Shown in pieces: positions 34,486-43,969 of a DNA stretch of 64,000 bases. Numbering within the stretch: the first letter of the stretch is position 1; each line of letters opens with the position of its first letter. Origin of the DNA: Oscillibacter sp. (GTDB lineage: Bacteria > Bacillota > Clostridia > Oscillospirales > Oscillospiraceae); NCBI GenBank assembly GCA_017526785.1, contig JAFXQV010000036.1, positions 1-64,000 of the forward strand, given 5' to 3'. The translations under genes and the position numbers were made by a program. The notes beneath the pieces are model-generated. The model worked only from the letters and a program-made list of their open reading frames with translations, was not told the origin of the DNA and searched no databases.

Positions 34486-36468
34486 TTACTGCTGTTCGGC
34501 AAGCGCCTTGGCCTCTGCAATGGCCTTTTCCTGCGCGGCGGGGGGGCAGTCCTCGTAACGGACAAAGTGGAACGTGAAACTGCCCCGGCTTTGCGTCATG
34601 GAGCGCAAGTCGATAGCGTAGGAACCCATTTCGGCCATAGGCACCTCGGCGGAGATGACCTGACTGCCGTCTCCGGTCGGGTCCATGCCCATGACGCGGC
34701 CGCGACGCTTGTTCAGGTCGCCGATAACGTCGCCCATATAGTTGTCGGGTACCGTCACTTTGAGTTCGCCCACGGGTTCGAGCAGTACGGGGTTCGCCTC
34801 CGGCATGCCAGCCTTGTAGGCCAGTTGCGCGGCGGTCTTGAACGCGATTTCGGACGAGTCGACGGGGTGATAGGAGCCGTCGTACAGCACCGCTTTCAGG
34901 TTCACGACGGGGTATCCGGCTAAGGGGCCGTGCAGGCAGGCCTCCCGCAGACCCTTTTCCACGGCCGGGAAAAAGTTCTTCGGCACGGAGCCGCCGAACA
35001 CTTCCTCGGCAAATACCATTTCCTCTTCTTCGGGGTTGGGTTCAAAGCGAATCCACACATCGCCGAATTGACCGCTTCCGCCCGTCTGCTTCTTGTGGCG
35101 TCCCTGCTTCTGAACGGTCTTGCGGATTTTCTCGCGGTAGGGTACGCGCGTCGGCTTGAGTTCCGCTTCGACGTTGAAACGGCTTTTCAGCTTGCTGACA
35201 AGTACATCAATCTGCATGTCGCCGGAGCCGGACAATACCATCTGGTGTGTCTCGACATTGCTGCCCACGGTAAAGGTCGGGTCTTCCTCGTTGAGGCGGG
35301 AGAGGCCTTGCGAAATTTTATCCTCCTGCCCTCTGGTCTTCGGCACAATTGCCACGGAATAGCACGGTTCCGCGAACGGAATCGGGGCTATCGTGACGGG
35401 AGCTTTCGCGTCGGAGAGGGTGTCCCCGGTCTTGACCTTGTCCATCTTGCCGATAGCGCCGATGTCGCCGCAGACAAGTTCCTTGATTTCGCTGGACTTC
35501 TTGCCGCGCATGGAGTACAGGCGGCCTAACTTCTCCGTGGAACCCGTGCGGGAGTTGTAGAGCGGCATATCGGGCGTAATCGTGCCGGACAGCACTTTCA
35601 CGAACGAATACTTGCCGTACTGGTCGGAGAGCGTCTTAAAGACGAACGCCACGGGCGCGCCGTCGGGCTTGACCTCGAACGCGTCGCCGGATTCGGTTTT
35701 CGGCGCGGTGCCTTCCGTCGGGTTGGGTGCCAAGTGCGCGATAGTGTCCAGCAGTGTCATAGTGCCGGTGCCGTTGACGGCGGAGCCGAACAGAGCCGGA
35801 TACAGCGCGTGTTCGCATACGGCCTGCCGTAAGCCCTGCTTCATCTCGTCGGGGGACAGGTCGCCGGTGTCGAAAAACTTCTCCATGAGTTCTTCACTGG
35901 TTCCGGCGGCGGCCTCTTTCAGCTCGTCCTCGGACGCCGCCACCAAATCCGCAACAGACGCCGGGACGTTCTTCCCGTCGGGCGCGGCGTACGGAATAAT
36001 ACTGTTCCCGAAACGCTCGCGGAGCGCTTCCAGCGTCGCGGCGGGGTCGCTGTTGTCCTCGTCAATGCGGGAGACATAGACGAAACGCGGAATCTGCCGC
36101 TCTTCACAGTATTTCCACGCCTTCTCCACGCCCACGGACACGCCGTCTTTCGCCGCACACACAATAATGGCGGCGTCGGCGGCGCTGAGCGCTTCCATGA
36201 CCTCTCCCGCGAAGTCAAACGCGCCGGGGGTGTCCAGTACGTTAATCCGGCAACCCTGATAGTCAATCGGGGCGACGGCCGTGGACAGCGAAATCTGCCG
36301 CTTGACCTCCTCCGGGTCGGAGTCGCAGACGGTGTTACCGTCGGCGGCGCGTCCCATACGGTCAATTGCCTTTGTCATGTAGAGCATGCTTTCGGCGAGG
36401 GCGGTTTTGCCGCTCCCGCTATGCCCCAGCAGGCAGACATTCCGGATGTCCTTGACAGAATAGCTCAT
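34486..36468 (-). CDS. EF-G-like translational GTPase homologue with altered motifs
   Basis: The 660-residue protein has all EF-G domains: G (1-270), II, III, IV (about 470-580) and V. The P-loop GHSGSGKTALAE is intact. Switch II reads DTPGAFDF, with Ala in place of the catalytic His of DTPGH. The nucleotide-base motif NKxD is VSRID here. The domain IV RHKKQTGGSGQFGDVWIRFEP block and the C-terminal MAEMGSYAIDLRSMTQSRGSFTFHF are well kept. It belongs to the EF-G-like paralogue group found beside true EF-G in Firmicutes, of unclear role. It has its own promoter and AAGGAG site. Confidence 0.93.
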   Translation of the reverse strand: MSYSVKDIRNVCLLGHSGSGKTALAESMLYMTKAIDRMGRAADGNTVCDSDPEEVKRQISLSTAVAPIDYQGCRINVLDTPGAFDFAGEVMEALSAADAAIIVCAAKDGVSVGVEKAWKYCEERQIPRFVYVSRIDEDNSDPAATLEALRERFGNSIIPYAAPDGKNVPASVADLVAASEDELKEAAAGTSEELMEKFFDTGDLSPDEMKQGLRQAVCEHALYPALFGSAVNGTGTMTLLDTIAHLAPNPTEGTAPKTESGDAFEVKPDGAPVAFVFKTLSDQYGKYSFVKVLSGTITPDMPLYNSRTGSTEKLGRLYSMRGKKSSEIKELVCGDIGAIGKMDKVKTGDTLSDAKAPVTIAPIPFAEPCYSVAIVPKTRGQEDKISQGLSRLNEEDPTFTVGSNVETHQMVLSGSGDMQIDVLVSKLKSRFNVEAELKPTRVPYREKIRKTVQKQGRHKKQTGGSGQFGDVWIRFEPNPEEEEMVFAEEVFGGSVPKNFFPAVEKGLREACLHGPLAGYPVVNLKAVLYDGSYHPVDSSEIAFKTAAQLAYKAGMPEANPVLLEPVGELKVTVPDNYMGDVIGDLNKRRGRVMGMDPTGDGSQVISAEVPMAEMGSYAIDLRSMTQSRGSFTFHFVRYEDCPPAAQEKAIAEAKALAEQQ

Positions 36469-36522: not shown

Positions 36523-36551
36523 ATTATACCGCATTCGCGGCCGGATTACAA
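36523..36551 (-). promoter_or_regulatory. Promoter of the EF-G-like gene
   Basis: On the minus strand TTGTAA (36551-36546), a 17-base spacer and TATAAT (36528-36523) precede the start at 36468. Confidence 0.75.
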
Positions 36552-36570: not shown

Positions 36571-37083
36571 TCACGCCTCCCCCACAATCGGCAGGTACCG
36601 CACCTCGACGCCGCGTTTCAGGGCGTACTCAATCGTATAGCGCGTGCCGCCGGGTGTGCCGTCGTAGGCCGCCAGCAACAGCGACGCGTGGTCAATCAAG
36701 TATCGGTCGCGTTGCAGCATGCAGTGAGGCGTGTACGACGGCGACACGGCCACGGCGTCGTCACAGCCCCGCAACAGTTCCGCGTACTGGATACGCTTGT
36801 CTGTCCGCCAGCGGTCGGCGTGTCCGGCGTACGGCAACGCCGCTTCGAGCGTCACGCCGTCGCGGACACGCTTCAAGCTCTGGACTTCTTCGCAGAAGTA
36901 AAGGTCACAGCCTTGCGCCATGCCGCACAGAAAGTGCCGGAAGCCCTCGTCGTACGCCGCTTGCAGGGCGTCGGCGATTCTCCGCCGCAACGCAAGACAG
37001 CGCAAGTCGCGCTCGTCGTCGCCCCACGGCAGTTTTCCGGGGCGGTGTCCCGTGAAAGCACACGTTTCCTGTCTCGCCGCCAC
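36571..37083 (-). CDS. SLOG-family protein (YpsA/DUF1273 type)
   Basis: A 170-residue Rossmann-like protein. TCAFTGHRPGKLPWG at the N terminus and the FLCGMAQGCDLYFCEEV block are the YpsA/DUF1273 signatures, a SLOG subgroup thought to bind nucleotides or related ligands. DRYLIDHASLLLAAYDGTPGGTRYTIEYA matches the C-terminal strand-helix unit. I chose GTG 37083, which follows GGAGTGACAGC and lies four bases after the upstream stop. It is the last gene of the barnase-to-SLOG operon. Confidence 0.88.
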   Translation of the reverse strand: MAARQETCAFTGHRPGKLPWGDDERDLRCLALRRRIADALQAAYDEGFRHFLCGMAQGCDLYFCEEVQSLKRVRDGVTLEAALPYAGHADRWRTDKRIQYAELLRGCDDAVAVSPSYTPHCMLQRDRYLIDHASLLLAAYDGTPGGTRYTIEYALKRGVEVRYLPIVGEA

Positions 37084-37087
37084 GCTG

Positions 37088-37984
37088 TCACTCCTTCCCG
37101 GGGTCGCGCCGTACAACGGCGGTATGTCCGCCGAACGCGCCCATACCGATTTCGGCACGCGCCGGGACGCTGGCGCGTTGCAGGTTCGTACAGTTCATAA
37201 AAGCCCAGTCCCCGACGCGCCCCACGCCGTCGGGTATCCGGACATGCGGCAGGCGCTCGCAGAACTGAAACGCGAAGTCCCCGATTTCCGCCACGCTTCC
37301 CGGAAGCCGTACCTCTGACAGATTCCTGCAGAACTGAAACGCGAAATCTCCAATTCGCGTCACGCCGTCGGGAATCGTGACGCTTTCCAGATTTTCGCAG
37401 AACGCGAACGCCGAATTTCCGATTTGCCGTACGCCGCCGGGGATACGGATTTCCGACAGGCTCTTGCAGAAGGCAAACGTAAAATCTCCGATTTCGGTTA
37501 CGCCGCCGGGGATGTCGATACTTGACAGCGCGTGGCAGTCGCGGAACGCCCAGCCGCCAATTCCGGTTACGCTGTCCGGAATCCGCACCTGTTCCAGCGC
37601 CGCACAGCCCTGAAACGCCGCCCCGCCAACGAACGTCAGACCGTCCGGGAGTTCGACACGTTCCAGCGCCGCGCAGTCCTGAAACGCACAGCCCCCGATT
37701 TGCGTCACGCTCGCCGGAATCCGTACGCTTTTCAGATGTTTGTGACCGTAGAACGCCAACAGCCCCACGCCCGTCACGCCGTCCTTGATGACAAGGGAGG
37801 TGACGTTATCGGGGTTCCACGGTGTGCCAATCATGCTGTCAACAGCCCCGGCACCCGAAAGCGTCAGCGTTCCGGCGCTGTCGAGTGTCCACGACAAGCC
37901 CTCCGCCGTCCCCGACGCCGTGACGGGCTTTTGTCTGCGCATACGCTGGAAAAGTTTCAGTTGCGGCACGTCGTCACGGCTCAT
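37088..37984 (-). CDS. BspA-type leucine-rich repeat protein (LRR_5)
   Basis: The 298-residue protein has no signal peptide. After a short basic N terminus, a lead module (about 23-70: SWTLDSAGTLTLSGAGAV...PW) precedes about nine LRR_5 units of 23 residues with the pattern IPxxVTxIGxxAFxxCxxLxxVxI. BspA-type repeats form a solenoid for protein binding. Most relatives are secreted, so a cytoplasmic form is unusual. The start follows AAAGGAG. The downstream SLOG gene begins four bases later. Confidence 0.88.
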   Translation of the reverse strand: MSRDDVPQLKLFQRMRRQKPVTASGTAEGLSWTLDSAGTLTLSGAGAVDSMIGTPWNPDNVTSLVIKDGVTGVGLLAFYGHKHLKSVRIPASVTQIGGCAFQDCAALERVELPDGLTFVGGAAFQGCAALEQVRIPDSVTGIGGWAFRDCHALSSIDIPGGVTEIGDFTFAFCKSLSEIRIPGGVRQIGNSAFAFCENLESVTIPDGVTRIGDFAFQFCRNLSEVRLPGSVAEIGDFAFQFCERLPHVRIPDGVGRVGDWAFMNCTNLQRASVPARAEIGMGAFGGHTAVVRRDPGKE

Positions 37985-38009
37985 GGGACACACTCCTTTC
38001 CGGTCAATG

Positions 38010-39206
38010 TCAGCGGCGTATGATTTGCGTGTGACGGTCAAACGCATCGACAATTTTCGTCCTTCTGGATACACTTACTTGTGTTAGACCTTCGCAATTA
38101 TGGAAAGCCCAGTATTCGATAGTTTTTACGCTGTTGGGAATTGTTACGCTTGTTAGAGTGGAGAAACTGAGAAAAGCGGCACTTCCGATAACAGTCACGC
38201 CGTGCTCAATAATTATAATCCTAATGCGTTCTCTGTACCTATTCCACGGAGTAACACTCAGGTAATAATGTCCCATTTCCCCTTGTCCAGAAATCGTGAG
38301 AACATCATTGTACAGCGTCCATTTACAGTCTCCTGTTTGGCCTGAATCAATGATTGTGAGTTTTGGGGGCGGCGGCGGTGTTGGTATCGGTTGTGGCGGC
38401 GGCGTGGGCTTTGGCGGTTTCGCTTCCATGCCATAGACTGCTTGCAACGCCGTTATAAAATAGTCCGCTTTCTTATGCGAAAGCATTAAATAAGTAGAGA
38501 GCCAGTCGCGGCTTTTGGCGGCAATCCGCGTGCATTCCGTATTGTCCCGGCTTTCGGACGCCTTGCGAAATTCCCGCAGAAGCCCCGCGTCCGACATTTG
38601 CCGCAAAACGTTTGCTTCCCCTTTCAAGTCCGGCGCGAAGTCCATCAAAATGGAGAATATGCGTGACGCTTGTTCAAATGCGCCGATATCAAATTTTTGG
38701 CGTACGTACAAAAGCACACTCCGCAGGTCTTTCGGGTCATATTTTGTCTGGAACGAATCCGGCAGGCCTTTTTGACTTAACGCGGCGTTGGTGTAGGCGG
38801 GGTCGTACGTGACTTCCCGCCCGAACCAGTCCGGCGCGGCGAACGCTTGCGCGGCGGCCTCCGTCGGAAACTCCACCTCCGCGAGCATGAGCGGCGCGAG
38901 CGCTTCCCGGAAAATGTCCAGTTCGACGGTGTACGCCCCCAGCGGGACGCGGTAGCGGTCTTTGACAATCGACGCCCCGTCGGCTTTCGCCAGCAGACGG
39001 GCGTACGATTCCGGGGTCAGGTCGAGTTCAAATTCTTCTCTTGCCAGCAGTCCGCGCCTCTTACAGGTTAAAATGTACCGTTCCCCGGCGTGGCGTACCC
39101 GTATGACGGGTTCCGTGGAAATATACGCCTGTTCCATGCGGGTACAGGGGTAGCGTTCCAGCGCGTCGGGGAGACGCGACACTAAAAATTTGCGTTCAAT
39201 CTCCAT
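38010..39206 (-). CDS. CYTH triphosphatase domain fused to a BspA-type LRR module
   Basis: The 398-residue protein begins with a CYTH domain (about 1-150): MEIERKFLV carries the ExExK motif, and basic/acidic strands such as VIRVRHAGERYILTCKRRG line the tunnel that binds triphosphates. A helical region (about 160-280) and a proline-rich linker (PPKPTPPPQPIPTPPPPP) follow. The end is a lead module plus two LRR_5 units, related to the neighbouring LRR protein. The DNA from about 38040 to 38500 is visibly more AT-rich than the CYTH part. I know of no characterised CYTH-LRR fusion. The Shine-Dalgarno site is weak; it starts 8 bases after the PrsW stop. Confidence 0.88.
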   Translation of the reverse strand: MEIERKFLVSRLPDALERYPCTRMEQAYISTEPVIRVRHAGERYILTCKRRGLLAREEFELDLTPESYARLLAKADGASIVKDRYRVPLGAYTVELDIFREALAPLMLAEVEFPTEAAAQAFAAPDWFGREVTYDPAYTNAALSQKGLPDSFQTKYDPKDLRSVLLYVRQKFDIGAFEQASRIFSILMDFAPDLKGEANVLRQMSDAGLLREFRKASESRDNTECTRIAAKSRDWLSTYLMLSHKKADYFITALQAVYGMEAKPPKPTPPPQPIPTPPPPPKLTIIDSGQTGDCKWTLYNDVLTISGQGEMGHYYLSVTPWNRYRERIRIIIIEHGVTVIGSAAFLSFSTLTSVTIPNSVKTIEYWAFHNCEGLTQVSVSRRTKIVDAFDRHTQIIRR

Positions 39207-39214
39207 GTAAGGCC

Positions 39215-39958
39215 TCACAATCCGCGTACAATGGGGCGGTCGGTCTCGGATTCGCGCCGAATTGTGCGCCACGCCGCCACGAACATCAGCAGGACGAACA
39301 CCACGAACAGTCCGGTAGCGAAGGCCGTGCCGGACATGGCGCAGGCGTCGTAAAAGCCGTGCAGAATGACGGCTATCAGGTACCCCGCCCAGAGGCTGAA
39401 CAGGGCGCTGACATGGTGTCCGCGATTTTCGCGGAGCCGCGCCCGCCCGTAGTACATGCCCATAAAGACCGAAAAGGACAGGTGTCCGGGAATGGCCAGT
39501 AATGCCCGGGGGAGTGCCACGGACAGCCCGTAGCCGAAAATATAGTAGACGTTCTCGAACGCCGCGAACCCCAGCGACACAAAAGCCGAATACACAACGC
39601 CGTCGAAGCGGTAATTAAACGCGGGATGGTTCCAAGTGCGGCGCTTCAGGAAGAAGAACTTGACGCCTTCCTCCACGACGGCGACGACCAAGAACGCAAG
39701 CAGGATAGTGTAAAGGGGGTCGCCTTGATAGAGAAACCGTTTCAGTATCCACTCTCCGAGGCCTTCCAAGAAGCTGGCAATCAGCGCCGCCACGACGCCG
39801 GAGAGTACCAGCAGGAACAGCAGGCCGGGGGGGTCGGGTTCCACCACGTCGTGACAGTAGATGTAGTGGAGCAGGAACGCGGCGGGGAGAATGGCGGCCA
39901 AGATGTAAATCAGCGCCACCGGGAGAATCGGCGATAGCGGGGGCAGTGTGAAAAACAA
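39215..39958 (-). CDS. PrsW-family intramembrane protease homologue
   Basis: The 247-residue protein has about seven hydrophobic helices and the PrsW motifs: EEGVKFFFLKR (paired Glu), FENVYYIFG, a GHLSFSVFMGMYYG helix and HGFYDA. PrsW proteins cleave anti-sigma factors within the membrane. The start is TTG 39958, set by AAAGGAG six bases upstream. It lies between barstar and the CYTH-LRR gene. The natural substrate is unknown; no anti-sigma factor is in the operon. Confidence 0.88.
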   Translation of the reverse strand: MFFTLPPLSPILPVALIYILAAILPAAFLLHYIYCHDVVEPDPPGLLFLLVLSGVVAALIASFLEGLGEWILKRFLYQGDPLYTILLAFLVVAVVEEGVKFFFLKRRTWNHPAFNYRFDGVVYSAFVSLGFAAFENVYYIFGYGLSVALPRALLAIPGHLSFSVFMGMYYGRARLRENRGHHVSALFSLWAGYLIAVILHGFYDACAMSGTAFATGLFVVFVLLMFVAAWRTIRRESETDRPIVRGL

Positions 39959-39977
39959 AAGTGTCTCCTTTCGGCGC

Positions 39978-40268
39978 TCAGACTTTGTCCGAGCGGGATT
40001 CCAGCGTGACGCGGAAATGTGGATTTTCGGCGGCGGCGTCGCGCAGGACGGAAATCAGCGTCCGGGCGTAGCCGCCCAAGGCCTCCTCCAGCCGTCCGGG
40101 GTGCAGTAACCGGAGTTCCGTGTCCATTTTGGATTCCGTGAGGCAGTCGTAGAGCGCGTCGAGGTTGCGCCCGTACCATGTGGGCAGGTTCAGGGCGCGG
40201 ATTAAGGCGTCGTGCAGTTCGTCGCGGGTGTGGATGTTGCCGCCCTCCATGACAGTAATCATCATCAT
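39978..40268 (-). CDS. Barstar-family ribonuclease inhibitor
   Basis: The 96-residue protein aligns with barstar along its length: ELHDALIRALNLPTWYGRNLDALYDCLTE is the binding helix, with both Asp residues (NLDALYD, equal to Asp35 and Asp39 of barstar) that plug the barnase active site. The C terminus FRVTLES is the last strand. It has no signal peptide, so it protects the cytoplasm. It starts at ATG 40268 behind AGGAGG and follows the barnase gene by 24 bases. Position and partner make the function very likely. Confidence 0.94.
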   Translation of the reverse strand: MMMITVMEGGNIHTRDELHDALIRALNLPTWYGRNLDALYDCLTESKMDTELRLLHPGRLEEALGGYARTLISVLRDAAAENPHFRVTLESRSDKV

Positions 40269-40292
40269 TGTAAGTCCTCCTGTTTCCGGCGC

Positions 40293-40949
40293 TCACGGCG
40301 TCCCGTAAAGGAGCGTGAACGTGTTGTAATGGTCTCCGGTGTAGTAAATCAGGCCGTCGTCGGAAAATACAAGGCGTTCCGCGCCACGGCTTTTCGCGCC
40401 TAACGTGTTGATGTCGCACTCGTGATAAGAGCGGTCGGCGGGGAGAAGCCCTTCATAGTTGCCGAACCTGTCGCCGCCGATACACTTTCCGGGCGCGTAG
40501 TCCTCCACGGAACCGCCGCCCCAGCCAAGCGATTTGGCCTCTTTTTTGGTGATGAAGTTGTCCGGGAGATGTCCGTAGAGGTGCAGGTAGAGCGCCACGT
40601 CGTTTTTCGTGGTATAGGTGCCGTCCTCCGTGATTTCGGACGCGTCCGGGGCGTCGTCAACGCCCGATGTCTCCGAAACGTCGTCGACTGTCCATGTCTC
40701 CGGCGGCGGAGTGAGCGGCTCGTCGGAAACCGGGGGTTGCTGTTCGGTGTAGGTGTCGTCGCCGGGGAACGCTTCCGGCTCCCAAGGGTCGTCGGATTCC
40801 ACGATGTCGGTTTCTTCGGACGCGGCGGCGCGTACCATGTCCAGCAGGTTTGGGGATTCGGTCTGTTGCGCGTCGGGCGTACTCCCGCAGGCCGTCAGCG
40901 CGTACAGTGACACCAAAAGCAGTAACCATATGCAAAGCCGTTTTTTCAT
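40293..40949 (-). CDS. Barnase-family ribonuclease exported as a lipoprotein
   Basis: The 218-residue protein has a lipoprotein signal with the lipobox LTAC at about residues 18-21. A flexible Asp/Glu/Pro/Thr-rich linker (about 22-105) precedes a C-terminal barnase domain. All barnase catalytic residues are present: Glu in HECDINT (Glu73), Arg in SRGAERL (Arg83 and Arg87) and His in GDHYNTF (His102). The structural LGWGGGSVEDYAPGKCIGGD block also matches. It should be an active, surface-tethered guanyl-type RNase. A GGAGG site precedes ATG 40949. It heads the operon with barstar next. Confidence 0.94.
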   Translation of the reverse strand: MKKRLCIWLLLLVSLYALTACGSTPDAQQTESPNLLDMVRAAASEETDIVESDDPWEPEAFPGDDTYTEQQPPVSDEPLTPPPETWTVDDVSETSGVDDAPDASEITEDGTYTTKNDVALYLHLYGHLPDNFITKKEAKSLGWGGGSVEDYAPGKCIGGDRFGNYEGLLPADRSYHECDINTLGAKSRGAERLVFSDDGLIYYTGDHYNTFTLLYGTP

Positions 40950-41029: not shown

Positions 41030-41064
41030 AAAAAAGCGTCCCGCCCGCTGACGGGACAGGACGC
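41030..41064 (-). terminator. Terminator of the BlaI-M56 pair
   Basis: On the minus strand GCGTCC and GGACGC (with CCCG/CGGG inside) form a long imperfect stem across 41064-41036, followed by six Ts (41035-41030). Confidence 0.85.
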
Positions 41065-41071
41065 CGCCCGA

Positions 41072-43567
41072 TTACTCGAACAACGCATAGAAGGCACCGT
41101 TGCCGGAGGCGTACTTGTAATACAGTCCGCCGCAACGGTAGACGGCGCAACTGTCCGCCGCCATCATGAGTTGTAATGTCTCGCCGTTTTCGCCCGTGAG
41201 GGTCAGCGGGTCGTCGAAGGGACATTTTGTTATGGGCGTGGGTTCTGCGTCCCGCAACAGTGCCGACAGTTCCGACAACTTCTCCGGGTCTGATAGCGTG
41301 TACGTCCCCGGCTGTGTCGGCTCTCCGTGGTTCTCGACATGCGTCAGCGTCGCGTGGGACAGTTTCCCCAGTTCGGACACGCTCGACGCGTTCCCGCGCA
41401 GACGCTGTGAGACCAGTTGCATGAGCGCTTGGCGTAGGCCTTGCGCGGTGCCGATATTCGCGTCAATGTACGCGCTGGTATAGGCGTCGTAATAGAGCAG
41501 TTCGCGCAGTGCCAGCGGGTGGGCGTTGAGGTAGTCGCCGGGATTCGACGACGGCGACGGCTCCGACATGATTTCGTCAAACAGCGCGTCTATAATCGGC
41601 GTCGTGTCGATGTGCCAATGCTCGACGGCTTGTCGGTAAAGTTCCTGATTTTCCCAGAGAATGTAAGTTTGTGTGTCAAGCTCCCTGTCAGACAGGCTCG
41701 ACGGGAACTTGTCGCGAACGTCCGGCCAGTAGTCCGCGCCGTCGCGGGGTTCCCAGTAGTCGGAAAGCACGGGCGTTCCGTCCTCCATGCGGAATGTCAG
41801 CACGACGTGTCCGCTCCGCCCGCTGACGCTCTCAAAGCGTCCGTCGTGATAATCGAAGCTCTCCCATAGCGATATCAAGCCCAGTCTCACAGTCGACACG
41901 GCCGGCGTCCATTCCCCGCCCATGTCTGCGGCGTCCGGGAAAACGCTAAGTAACACATGACTTTCGGCGTCGAACGCGCCGGAGACGTGCCGGGGGCGGT
42001 TGTGTTCGATAATCGCGGCGCGTACGGCGGCTTCCAGCTCATCGGACAGCGCCTCGCCCTTGCGCGGCGCGGCGGCTATCGCGTCTGGGTTCGACGGAAC
42101 AAGCAACAGTCCCCCGGCGTCGGTCATGCGGAGTGTGCCAGTGACCAGCGGCGCGGGGTACGGGAGAATTGACCAGTTACTTTTCCACTGCCGCGCCACA
42201 AGGGCGTTGTCCTCCAAGGACAGGGTATAGTTGTAGTGCGTTCTGTCCTGCAACTCGCTGAGCCGCCCGGCCTTGTAGTCGTAGACAAGGATTCTTTCGT
42301 CAATGATTCCGGAACCGAAGCTGACCATAGAACAGAGTTCGGAGTAACCGTCGCCGTTCAAGTCGGAAAAGTACACGCTCCAGACGGGCATTCCCGAAAA
42401 GAGAACCGTTTCCACGCCGTCGGCGTCCGTGGCGCTGACCTGTTCCGGCGTCCAGCGGAACGTCACGCCCGGAAATTCAACGGATGTTCGTGTCTCCTCC
42501 AAGTTCGGCCAATTCGCGTCGGCGTCGTTGCAGACCCACAGTAACGGCTCTTTTCCGTCGCTGACAGCGGTATCCGGTTCCGTGGTTTGTGTGTCGGCAC
42601 CAAGTTCGACTGTTTCCGCGTCCGCGTCCGCGTCGACGGGGCGCGTCAGGAAGCACGCCGCCGCCGCGACGCATACGCACACCGCCGCGCAAGTCGCCCA
42701 AAACGCAGGCTTCCGGTAGCGCAACACGGCCTTGACGCGCTCTTTCACGGACAGTTCCCCGAACGCCAGCGGACACGCAACTTGTAATTTTTTCCAGTGC
42801 AGGCCGCATTGTAAAAGTGTTTCGGAGTAGGCCGCACGGCGCGGGGCGTCCATGTCGCGGATTGCGGCTTCGTCGCAGGCGAGTTCCATGTCACGGCAGA
42901 ACAGCGCGTACGACAGCCATACCAGCGGGTGGAACCAGTACAGGCAGGTCAACAGCCACGCGCAGAGCTTCCAGACATGGTCTCCGCGCCGGATGTGGGC
43001 GCGTTCGTGGGCGAGTACGCACGAGAGTTCGGCACCGGACAGCCCCGACGGGACGTAGACGCACGGCCGCACGATTCCGAGTACGAACGGAGAGGCGATA
43101 TCGTCACAAATTCGCACACCGTCCCGCAGTGTCAGCGAGGCCGCGACCACGCGCCGGAGTTTGCGGTAGCTGTACAGGCTCCAAGCCAACAGCGCGCAAA
43201 GTCCGGCACACCAGACCGCCGACAGAATTTGTGTCGGCGTCGGCGCGGACGCGGAAACGGGCGTCAGTGGTTCATGCGCGGGGACGGGATACGGCACAGT
43301 TTCCGGGAGAAACGCCGTGGCGGGTTCGGCGTCCGGCGGCGCGACATTTCGCGGCGCGGCGGCGGAAATCGTGGGCGTGTCGGGCATGAGGCTCAGCGGG
43401 CTTTCCGGCGCGTACGGACACAGTAACCGCACCGCCACAAGCGCCCACAGCACCAGTCGAAACGTTTTCGGCGCGCCGCGCAACAGGACGCGCAACAGCA
43501 CCACCACGCCAATCAGTACCGCCGCCCCCGTGGAACGTTCCAGCAGGTACAAAAATACACGTTCCAT
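41072..43567 (-). CDS. M56-family (BlaR1/MecR1-like) sensor metallopeptidase
   Basis: The 831-residue protein has four membrane helices in its first about 300 residues and the zinc motif HERAH (VLAHERAHIRRGD) near residue 185, as in BlaR1 and MecR1, which signal by cleaving a BlaI repressor. The C-terminal about 500 residues face outside. They contain no penicillin-binding SxxK/SxN/KTG set. One part (YFSDLNGDGYSELCSM) looks like an FG-GAP/VCBS unit. The ligand is therefore unlikely to be a beta-lactam. It overlaps the BlaI stop (TGATG). Confidence 0.92.
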   Translation of the reverse strand: MERVFLYLLERSTGAAVLIGVVVLLRVLLRGAPKTFRLVLWALVAVRLLCPYAPESPLSLMPDTPTISAAAPRNVAPPDAEPATAFLPETVPYPVPAHEPLTPVSASAPTPTQILSAVWCAGLCALLAWSLYSYRKLRRVVAASLTLRDGVRICDDIASPFVLGIVRPCVYVPSGLSGAELSCVLAHERAHIRRGDHVWKLCAWLLTCLYWFHPLVWLSYALFCRDMELACDEAAIRDMDAPRRAAYSETLLQCGLHWKKLQVACPLAFGELSVKERVKAVLRYRKPAFWATCAAVCVCVAAAACFLTRPVDADADAETVELGADTQTTEPDTAVSDGKEPLLWVCNDADANWPNLEETRTSVEFPGVTFRWTPEQVSATDADGVETVLFSGMPVWSVYFSDLNGDGYSELCSMVSFGSGIIDERILVYDYKAGRLSELQDRTHYNYTLSLEDNALVARQWKSNWSILPYPAPLVTGTLRMTDAGGLLLVPSNPDAIAAAPRKGEALSDELEAAVRAAIIEHNRPRHVSGAFDAESHVLLSVFPDAADMGGEWTPAVSTVRLGLISLWESFDYHDGRFESVSGRSGHVVLTFRMEDGTPVLSDYWEPRDGADYWPDVRDKFPSSLSDRELDTQTYILWENQELYRQAVEHWHIDTTPIIDALFDEIMSEPSPSSNPGDYLNAHPLALRELLYYDAYTSAYIDANIGTAQGLRQALMQLVSQRLRGNASSVSELGKLSHATLTHVENHGEPTQPGTYTLSDPEKLSELSALLRDAEPTPITKCPFDDPLTLTGENGETLQLMMAADSCAVYRCGGLYYKYASGNGAFYALFE

Positions 43568-43935
43568 CACAAAGCCCCCTTCCGGGCTTCGTCAATCATG
43601 CGGCGGATTTCGGCGGCCTCGGCGTCCGACAGCGGCTTCCGCGACAGGAACGCCGCCACAAACGCGGGCAACGACCCATTGTAGGTGTCGGTCACGAACT
43701 GTTCGCTCTGCGCGGCGTGGAACTCCTCGCGGGACAGTACCGCCGTCACCGTGCAGTGGTCATTACGGAACAGTCCCTTGTTGCACAGTTTGCGCAATAC
43801 CGTGTACGTCGTGGGCTTTTTCCATTGTAGTTCCCGCTCACAGATGCGCACCAGTTCCCCGGACGCTATCGGCGCGTTGTCCCACACGATGTCCGCGAAA
43901 CGCGATTCCACCGCGCCTAATGTGAATTTGTTCAT
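43567..43935 (-). CDS. BlaI/MecI-family repressor
   Basis: The 122-residue protein is a winged-helix repressor: LGAVESRFADIVWDNAPIASGELV and the recognition segment KKPTTYTVLRKLCNKGLF match BlaI. A C-terminal dimer helix includes LPAFVAAFLSRKPLSDAEAAEIRRMI. Its M56 partner presumably removes it by proteolysis. No beta-lactamase or PBP gene is adjacent. The start follows AAGGGGG. It is coupled to the M56 gene by overlap and sits behind a promoter that carries repeat elements. Confidence 0.93.
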   Translation of the reverse strand: MNKFTLGAVESRFADIVWDNAPIASGELVRICERELQWKKPTTYTVLRKLCNKGLFRNDHCTVTAVLSREEFHAAQSEQFVTDTYNGSLPAFVAAFLSRKPLSDAEAAEIRRMIDEARKGAL

Positions 43936-43969
43936 ACAAAGTCCCCCTTGCAAGTTTGATTGATTCCCG

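Follow-up and report, generated by a model that had tools for sequence, protein, structure and literature searches.

Which genes of a tight bacterial run belong with a barnase-type ribonuclease (RNase), and what might an intramembrane protease encoded beside it have to do with that enzyme? The run lies in a stretch of 64,000 nucleotides from a gut bacterium, Oscillibacter sp. (GenBank assembly GCA_017526785.1, contig JAFXQV010000036.1, positions 1 to 64,000 of the forward strand), here called the window. A first-pass annotation had taken six of its genes as one system, a surface RNase weapon governed by the PrsW protease and by ligand sensing. Comparison with related genomes leads to a smaller unit. 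The best explanation is a core of a barnase lipoprotein, its inhibitor barstar and PrsW, with a CYTH-domain gene as a frequent fourth member; the LRR, SLOG and EF-G-like genes are then unrelated neighbours. The association is true and moderately interesting, and smaller than first claimed: three core genes and a frequent fourth, in two genera.

A barnase lipoprotein, barstar and PrsW

Positions 36571-40949 hold six intact minus-strand genes, arranged head to tail as barnase, barstar, PrsW, CYTH-LRR, LRR and SLOG and separated, in that order, by 24, 19, 8, 25 and 4 bases. The layout is as first described, and every named domain of the six proteins passes its Pfam cut-off. The three core genes are:

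40293..40949, minus strand: barnase-type RNase lipoprotein, 218 amino acids (PF00545, 1.6e-19, 70.6 bits against a cut-off of 24)
39978..40268, minus strand: barstar, 96 amino acids, directly after barnase (PF01337, 4.6e-20, 71.8 bits against a cut-off of 23.4)
39215..39958, minus strand: PrsW-family intramembrane protease with a TTG start, 247 amino acids (PF13367, 1.6e-34, 119.6 bits against a cut-off of 23.5)

The barnase begins with a lipoprotein-type signal carrying the lipobox LTA-C21, continues through an acidic, proline- and threonine-rich linker of about 92 residues, and ends in a catalytic domain (residues 114-213) that matches the solved barnases of the PDB at 1.6e-25. The claim that the enzyme is catalytically complete holds: K135, E177, R188, R192 and H207 align with K27, E73, R83, R87 and H102, in what we take to be the residue numbering of Bacillus barnase. 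In the loci read, which give 135 distinct barnases, these positions hardly vary. K27 is kept in 134, and all 135 have E73 and H102 (the latter by pattern in 132 and by eye in three more, of which two read NHY and one is cut after the His); R83 and R87 are found by pattern in 128 and by eye in the remaining 7. The position of R59, presumably a barstar contact in the Bacillus enzyme, is Tyr in 111 of the 135 and Arg in 22, and the barstar partner may have changed along with this residue. The barstar itself matches its PDB counterpart at 1.4e-8, with the segment WYGRNLDALYDCLT aligned to a helix that we take to be the barnase-binding segment; no signal peptide is seen, and the protein is predicted to be cytosolic.

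Of 111 barnase open reading frames (ORFs) of the family, truncated rows and one duplicate among them, 95 fit a rough lipobox pattern; the predicted surface tether is therefore a family rule and not a speciality of the window. Among PrsW-linked loci the lipobox is readable in 16 as well as in the window, and in three others (L056, L061, L137) it is not clear, cut or masked.

Residues E96, E97, K100, E135, H159, H200 and D204 of PrsW, which we take to be the catalytic motifs, do not vary among the window's protein and the 14 others compared with it. The window's clade also has a second PrsW paralogue (L369-L372; G000:C11 and relatives), whose full-length copies are 37-40% identical and which in L369-L371 lies beside a gene that by eye looks like a response regulator. 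In genus g37, a PrsW paralogue (L375, 5944-6681) is close to a protein that by eye looks VTC-type, a relative within the CYTH superfamily.

The trio recurs in two genera

The comparison covers 86 genomes of the genus, 42 of them of good quality; genes in relatives are uncurated longest ORFs, and gap sizes there depend on the start codon. Barnase is present in 41 of the 86 genomes, PrsW in 32 (the tight subfamily in 31) and a CYTH domain in 26, counting one weak match. Where barnase and PrsW co-occur, they usually do so in one place: barnase/barstar and PrsW form one run in 16 of 19 such genomes, the exceptions being G013, G060 and G083.

The gene order is kept beyond this strain, so the lack of conservation that the first-pass annotation named as grounds for refutation does not apply. 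Six more genomes (G018, G019, G020, G023, G063, G064) carry the long run barnase-barstar-PrsW-CYTH-(LRR)-LRR-SLOG-EF-G on one strand, and together with the window they make up a single clade of seven. The middle LRR gene is absent in G019 and G023, G063 has its two LRR-type genes in the opposite order, and the contig ends the run within the LRR gene in G064, inside the EF-G gene in G020 and inside barnase in G063. A shorter barnase-barstar-PrsW arrangement, with or without CYTH, is found in nine further genomes (G021, G022, G025, G027, G038, G044, G058, G061, G074). In two of them, G022 and G027, CYTH separates barstar from PrsW. The barnase of G044 is partly masked and its barstar was not recognised, leaving barnase and PrsW as the readable part, and G021 has one copy cut inside PrsW and another contig that starts inside barstar.

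Eight contigs of metagenome-assembled genomes (MAGs) stop within or just before barnase-barstar (L036, L048, L052, L056, L061, L066, L137, L139), perhaps from strain variation or repeats. In five loci of the genus (L034, L037, L039, L044, L045), barstar is followed by a protein of about 300 amino acids with a similar start in each; a Pfam scan of one copy (L037) gave no match.

Outside the genus, barnase was found in 141 of 400 family genomes (two of the 141 belong to the genus), from which 68 distinct non-genus loci were read. PrsW directly follows barstar in four of these, all from genus g81, where they account for four of the five barnase loci. Their barstar-PrsW gaps are 2-17 bases and their flanks are different ones (an EamA transporter by Pfam and an XdhC-like gene by eye). 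Because the gene order is kept beyond the strain and the trio recurs in a second genus, the core is real: a (probably) membrane-tethered RNase adjoining PrsW is a recurrent arrangement.

A profile scan for PrsW in named genomes, a set that overlaps the genus set, points the same way. Among the best 80 loci, barnase and/or barstar stand just upstream of PrsW in 24; a 25th candidate, L305, was discounted as a weak 21-bit match to a lipoprotein. Ten of the 24 record titles give a ruminant or deer host, and among the matches listed the one nearest to the window comes from goat reticulum, an Oscillospiraceae MAG whose PrsW is 96% identical.

How PrsW might act on the barnase

A mechanism can be proposed that uses each member of the trio. 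As its lipobox suggests, the barnase would leave the cytosol through Sec, receive a lipid at Cys21 and stay tethered by its long linker to the outside of the membrane. Barstar would remain in the cytosol and block any barnase that fails to leave; such inhibition of unexported barnase inside the cell is known for the family. PrsW, probably made from the same transcript, might then cut the anchored barnase or its precursor near the membrane, and this cleavage would shed the RNase or clear stuck precursors. That the trio is functionally coupled in some way seems to us evenly balanced. That PrsW cuts the barnase directly seems less likely than not. Somewhat less likely still is the complete scheme, a split, trans-acting PrsW toxin pathway of Oscillospiraceae with a lipid-anchored barnase at the surface, barstar within, a dedicated and co-transcribed PrsW that would release the RNase when needed or destroy precursors stalled in the membrane, and an accessory tripolyphosphatase.

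The variety of the linked loci speaks for coupling, with several flanks, two gene orders and two genera around the same trio. Several observations weigh against it. Of the 31 genus genomes with this PrsW, 12 have no barnase and three more have it elsewhere. No PrsW link was seen in the 63 other non-genus family loci read, among which L169 and L190 end less than 100 bases from barnase and so cannot tell. At the level of the order, barnase matched in 80 of 394 genomes; 27 loci were read from these, one of which (G165) had already been counted, and the 26 new loci have no PrsW near barnase within the 1.5 kb covered. Family and order loci alike reach at most 1.5 kb to either side, and a PrsW lying farther off would escape notice. 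Lipoprotein barnases are usual in the family with or without PrsW; therefore anchoring does not require PrsW. Neither the lipobox nor the length of the linker marks out PrsW-linked barnases, linked and unlinked proteins looking alike by eye. The mature barnase lipoprotein has no evident transmembrane helix for intramembrane cleavage, and no sequence mark of a PrsW cleavage site was found. Finally, co-occurrence of the two genes is by itself weak: barnase is present in 19 of 31 genus genomes with PrsW and in 22 of 55 without it (Fisher p 0.047, uncorrected for kinship).

Coupling or shared neighbourhood

The same observations could be read as neighbourhood only. Barnase-barstar would have landed beside PrsW in an ancestor, and the arrangement would since have been inherited, passed on or lost; the genes would share a transcript and serve separate pathways, PrsW having a general envelope job. 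We take this possibility seriously while leaning against it. It accounts well for how often each partner is found alone. Barnase has no adjoining PrsW in 64 of the 68 non-genus family loci read, and 56 of the best 80 named PrsW loci have no adjoining barnase, standing instead in many contexts (by eye next to seryl-tRNA-synthetase-like, SbcC-like and other genes). It also accords with the clustering of linked rows on trees of both proteins.

These trees were built from rows trimmed by motif, and the barnase tree has few columns. It leaves out L137 (masked), L180 (the L192 gene again), repeat loci L232-L261 and all rows below 150 bits, together with L064, L069 and L230, whose rows lack the motif. 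On the PrsW tree (48 rows, 20 of them barnase-linked) the label changes 8 times, at least 3 of these forced by well-supported branches; on the barnase tree (105 rows, 19 PrsW-linked) it changes 7 times, at least 5 forced. Linked labels are clustered on both, with none of 500 shuffles as low, a result that near-copies alone can produce. The 8 and 7 changes imply that the coupling persisted, arose or disappeared several times, and the spread of linked barnases over several distinct groups means that it does not go back to one recent event; between several gains and several losses the trees do not distinguish. A plasmid or phage origin was also considered and set aside: a tblastn search with the barnase hit no phage, and its five records from the plasmid collection show less than 60% identity and cover no more than 58% of the query.

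What tells against a mere neighbourhood is that one run is found in so large a share of the co-occurring genomes across the flanks, orders and genera described above, and that PrsW is favoured among barstar's neighbours. In a list of 107 barnase loci, the next ORF after barnase-barstar is PrsW in 12 and CYTH in 2; the runner-up, the protein of about 300 amino acids, follows in five (by eye, most ORFs being unclassified).

CYTH as a possible partner of PrsW

The fourth gene of the window's run encodes two parts:

38757..39206, minus strand: CYTH / triphosphate-tunnel domain, residues 1-150 (PF01928, 3.4e-6)
38010..38756, minus strand: C-terminal part of CYTH-LRR, made up of a stretch without Pfam match, a Pro-rich stretch and a short LRR_5 (8.4e-10)

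The whole gene (38010-39206, minus strand) is an in-frame fusion of two genes. In the nearest relative, G018 (locus L060), a TGA stop and a new ATG split CYTH from the middle LRR gene; the two are fused in the window because this stop codon is absent. A profile of 11 CYTH sequences matches the small bacterial triphosphate tunnel enzymes 3TYP (8.3e-37) and 2FBL (NE1496, 9.8e-37), with which it shares the ExExK start and the invariant charged residues. We take NE1496 to be the inorganic triphosphatase of Nitrosomonas europaea. The ExExK motif and tunnel charges E2, E4, K6, R36, R38, K49 and R56 are invariant in all 11 sequences, as are E58, K82, R84, E95, D97, E110 and E112, and a tripolyphosphatase is the probable function. 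A CYTH protein of N. europaea is reported to be a specific inorganic triphosphatase (PMC3440374). The window's CYTH differs from its relatives in its LRR tail; theirs stands alone or is joined to a DUF1653 domain. Such a C-terminal DUF1653-like domain is carried by the genus proteins of L033, L055, L036, L146, L156 and L151, and was confirmed by Pfam in L055.

These data suggest a second alternative, in which PrsW and CYTH are the real unit, a signalling or envelope-stress pair, and the surface RNase is one output, brought under the pair's transcript in some lineages. Co-occurrence favours it more strongly than it does PrsW with barnase: CYTH is present in 20 of 31 genus genomes with PrsW and in 5 of 55 without it (Fisher p 1e-7, again uncorrected for kinship). 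The two genes also lie at most 2.5 kb apart with no adjacent barnase in six genomes, four without barnase (G016, G024, G041, G062) and two with barnase elsewhere (G060, G083). Among the named genomes, Oscillibacter valericigenes An860 and An890 have PrsW and CYTH a few kb apart at most and no barnase next to PrsW. The g81 loci read, however, show the trio without a CYTH gene. In other loci of the window's genus, CYTH is found beside decarboxylase and radical-SAM genes or fused to DUF1653, and no sigma or anti-sigma gene was noticed near the loci or near the second PrsW paralogue, where ORF starts were inspected by eye and no profile was run. We therefore give this pair little credence as the whole explanation, and keep the barnase-barstar-PrsW core with CYTH as its frequent companion.

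LRR and SLOG genes as neighbours

The last two genes of the run are:

37088..37984, minus strand: BspA-type LRR protein, 298 amino acids, a clade-specific neighbour (PF13306, LRR_5, 1.3e-84)
36571..37083, minus strand: YpsA-type SLOG protein with a GTG start (PF06908, 2.9e-19, 70.1 bits against a cut-off of 27.7)

The SLOG protein matches YpsA of the PDB (2NX2) at 7.7e-8 and stays below the NCBIfam equivalog cut-off (46 against 165). SLOG is found in 76 of the 86 genus genomes, including all 42 of good quality, while barnase is found in 41; SLOG is therefore not tied to barnase, and we take it as a hitch-hiking neighbour. Among the loci read, the only SLOG near PrsW outside the clade is that of G040 (L140), where barnase is lacking; it lies about 2.6 kb away on the same strand, and a DUF4317 gene and a glycosyltransferase-like gene separate the two. 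Strong LRR matches close to barnase or PrsW are likewise confined, in the loci read, to the clade and L219. By eye no signal peptide is visible in the LRR proteins, so they are probably cytosolic, and a role for them as surface modules was rejected.

The weapon of six parts first envisaged, with PrsW control, CYTH and SLOG as ligand sensors and LRR recognition modules, could draw on the run kept in seven genomes apart from LRR variation and contig ends, on the gaps of 4-25 bases in the window and on the SLOG near PrsW in G040, and yet we regard it as very improbable, as SLOG outnumbers barnase, CYTH joins PrsW without barnase and is a local fusion with its LRR tail, the LRR pair was seen here only in the clade, is variable inside it and lacks visible export signals, and no PADLOC model matches. 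What survives is the recurrence of barnase-barstar-PrsW in two genera and of a probably tethered RNase beside PrsW; the unit of six genes was rejected, since SLOG, LRR and CYTH have other distributions. SLOG and CYTH were dropped as sensors for the RNase: nothing found ties either to it, SLOG having no link to barnase outside the clade in the loci read and CYTH being linked to PrsW also where barnase is missing. None of the six proteins matches an anti-phage defence model of PADLOC at E 0.01.

Flanks and transcription signals

The gaps at either end of the six genes are wider than those within, at 102 bases to the EF-G-like gene (with its ATG taken at 36468) and 122 to M56. Two further features lie in these gaps:

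41035..41065, minus strand: terminator-like hairpin at the end of the M56 transcript, upstream of barnase (12 pairs, 8 of them GC, with a T-run; a consensus match only)
36523..36551, minus strand: promoter-like site of the downstream EF-G-like gene (TTGTAA-17-TATAAT, 10/12; a consensus match only)

With such a hairpin before them and such a site after them the six genes could share one transcript, which we consider plausible from the sequence. Inspection by eye also shows TGCTATGAT, an extended -10-like sequence, and a GGAGG directly 5' of the barnase start. Between SulP and barnase the window has a BlaI-like repressor and M56 (BlaR1-like) pair at 41072-43953. In L058 and L060, barnase directly follows SulP, the distance being 36 bases if the longest ORF is taken and about 70 with the start adopted here.

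Comparison with known systems

Barnase-barstar is a textbook pair that many gut bacteria carry, and most copies read from this large family look like surface lipoproteins. The window's pair resembles that of Bacillus in its RNase domain, its catalytic residues, the inhibitor gene downstream and the export of the enzyme. It departs from it in the predicted lipid anchor on a long linker, in the Tyr (Tyr165) at the R59 position and in having prsW next in the operon; Bacillus barnase is freely secreted. The window's PrsW shares the protease domain and the conserved acidic and histidine residues of the sigma-W-pathway PrsW, the site-1 protease of RsiW. It differs in falling below the NF033739 equivalog cut-off for that pathway (119.8 against 225 bits), and no RsiW-like partner was noticed nearby, by eye and with no profile search.

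Descriptions of a barnase, barstar and PrsW operon, of the barnase/CYTH/LRR/SLOG combination and of a barnase ribonuclease of Oscillibacter were sought in the open PMC literature and none was found among the papers listed, which apart from Zhang et al. 2012 were judged by title, in agreement with the earlier view that no such combination had been described. Barnase, barstar and PrsW meet in one paper found there, Zhang et al. 2012 (PMC3482391), which is also the one found on PrsW with polymorphic toxins. From the fusion of PrsW domains to toxin domains, its authors propose that PrsW is a peptidase that releases toxins. The table entry for Tox-Barnase in that paper, as far as consulted, lists T2SS, T6SS, T7SS, TcdB/TcaC, MuF and PVC and does not name PrsW. 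The PrsW-dependent polymorphic toxins described there (as excerpted) combine a PrsW peptidase with a nuclease toxin domain, as the window does, here with the immunity gene alongside. They differ in that PrsW is fused N-terminally to the toxin, whereas the window has a separate prsW gene and an RNase with its own lipoprotein signal; no fused ORF was noticed in the linked loci read. The pattern of variable toxin domains on a constant N-terminus was not found: the RNase domain is the constant part and the linkers differ in length. These PrsW-fused polymorphic toxins are the closest known kind, and the window's case would follow that idea with PrsW encoded in trans.

In two genera, then, barnase is accompanied by an intramembrane protease from a wider family best known for cleaving anti-sigma factors. 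If PrsW does act on the barnase, it would add a new class of PrsW substrate and give direct support to the toxin-release proposal of 2012.

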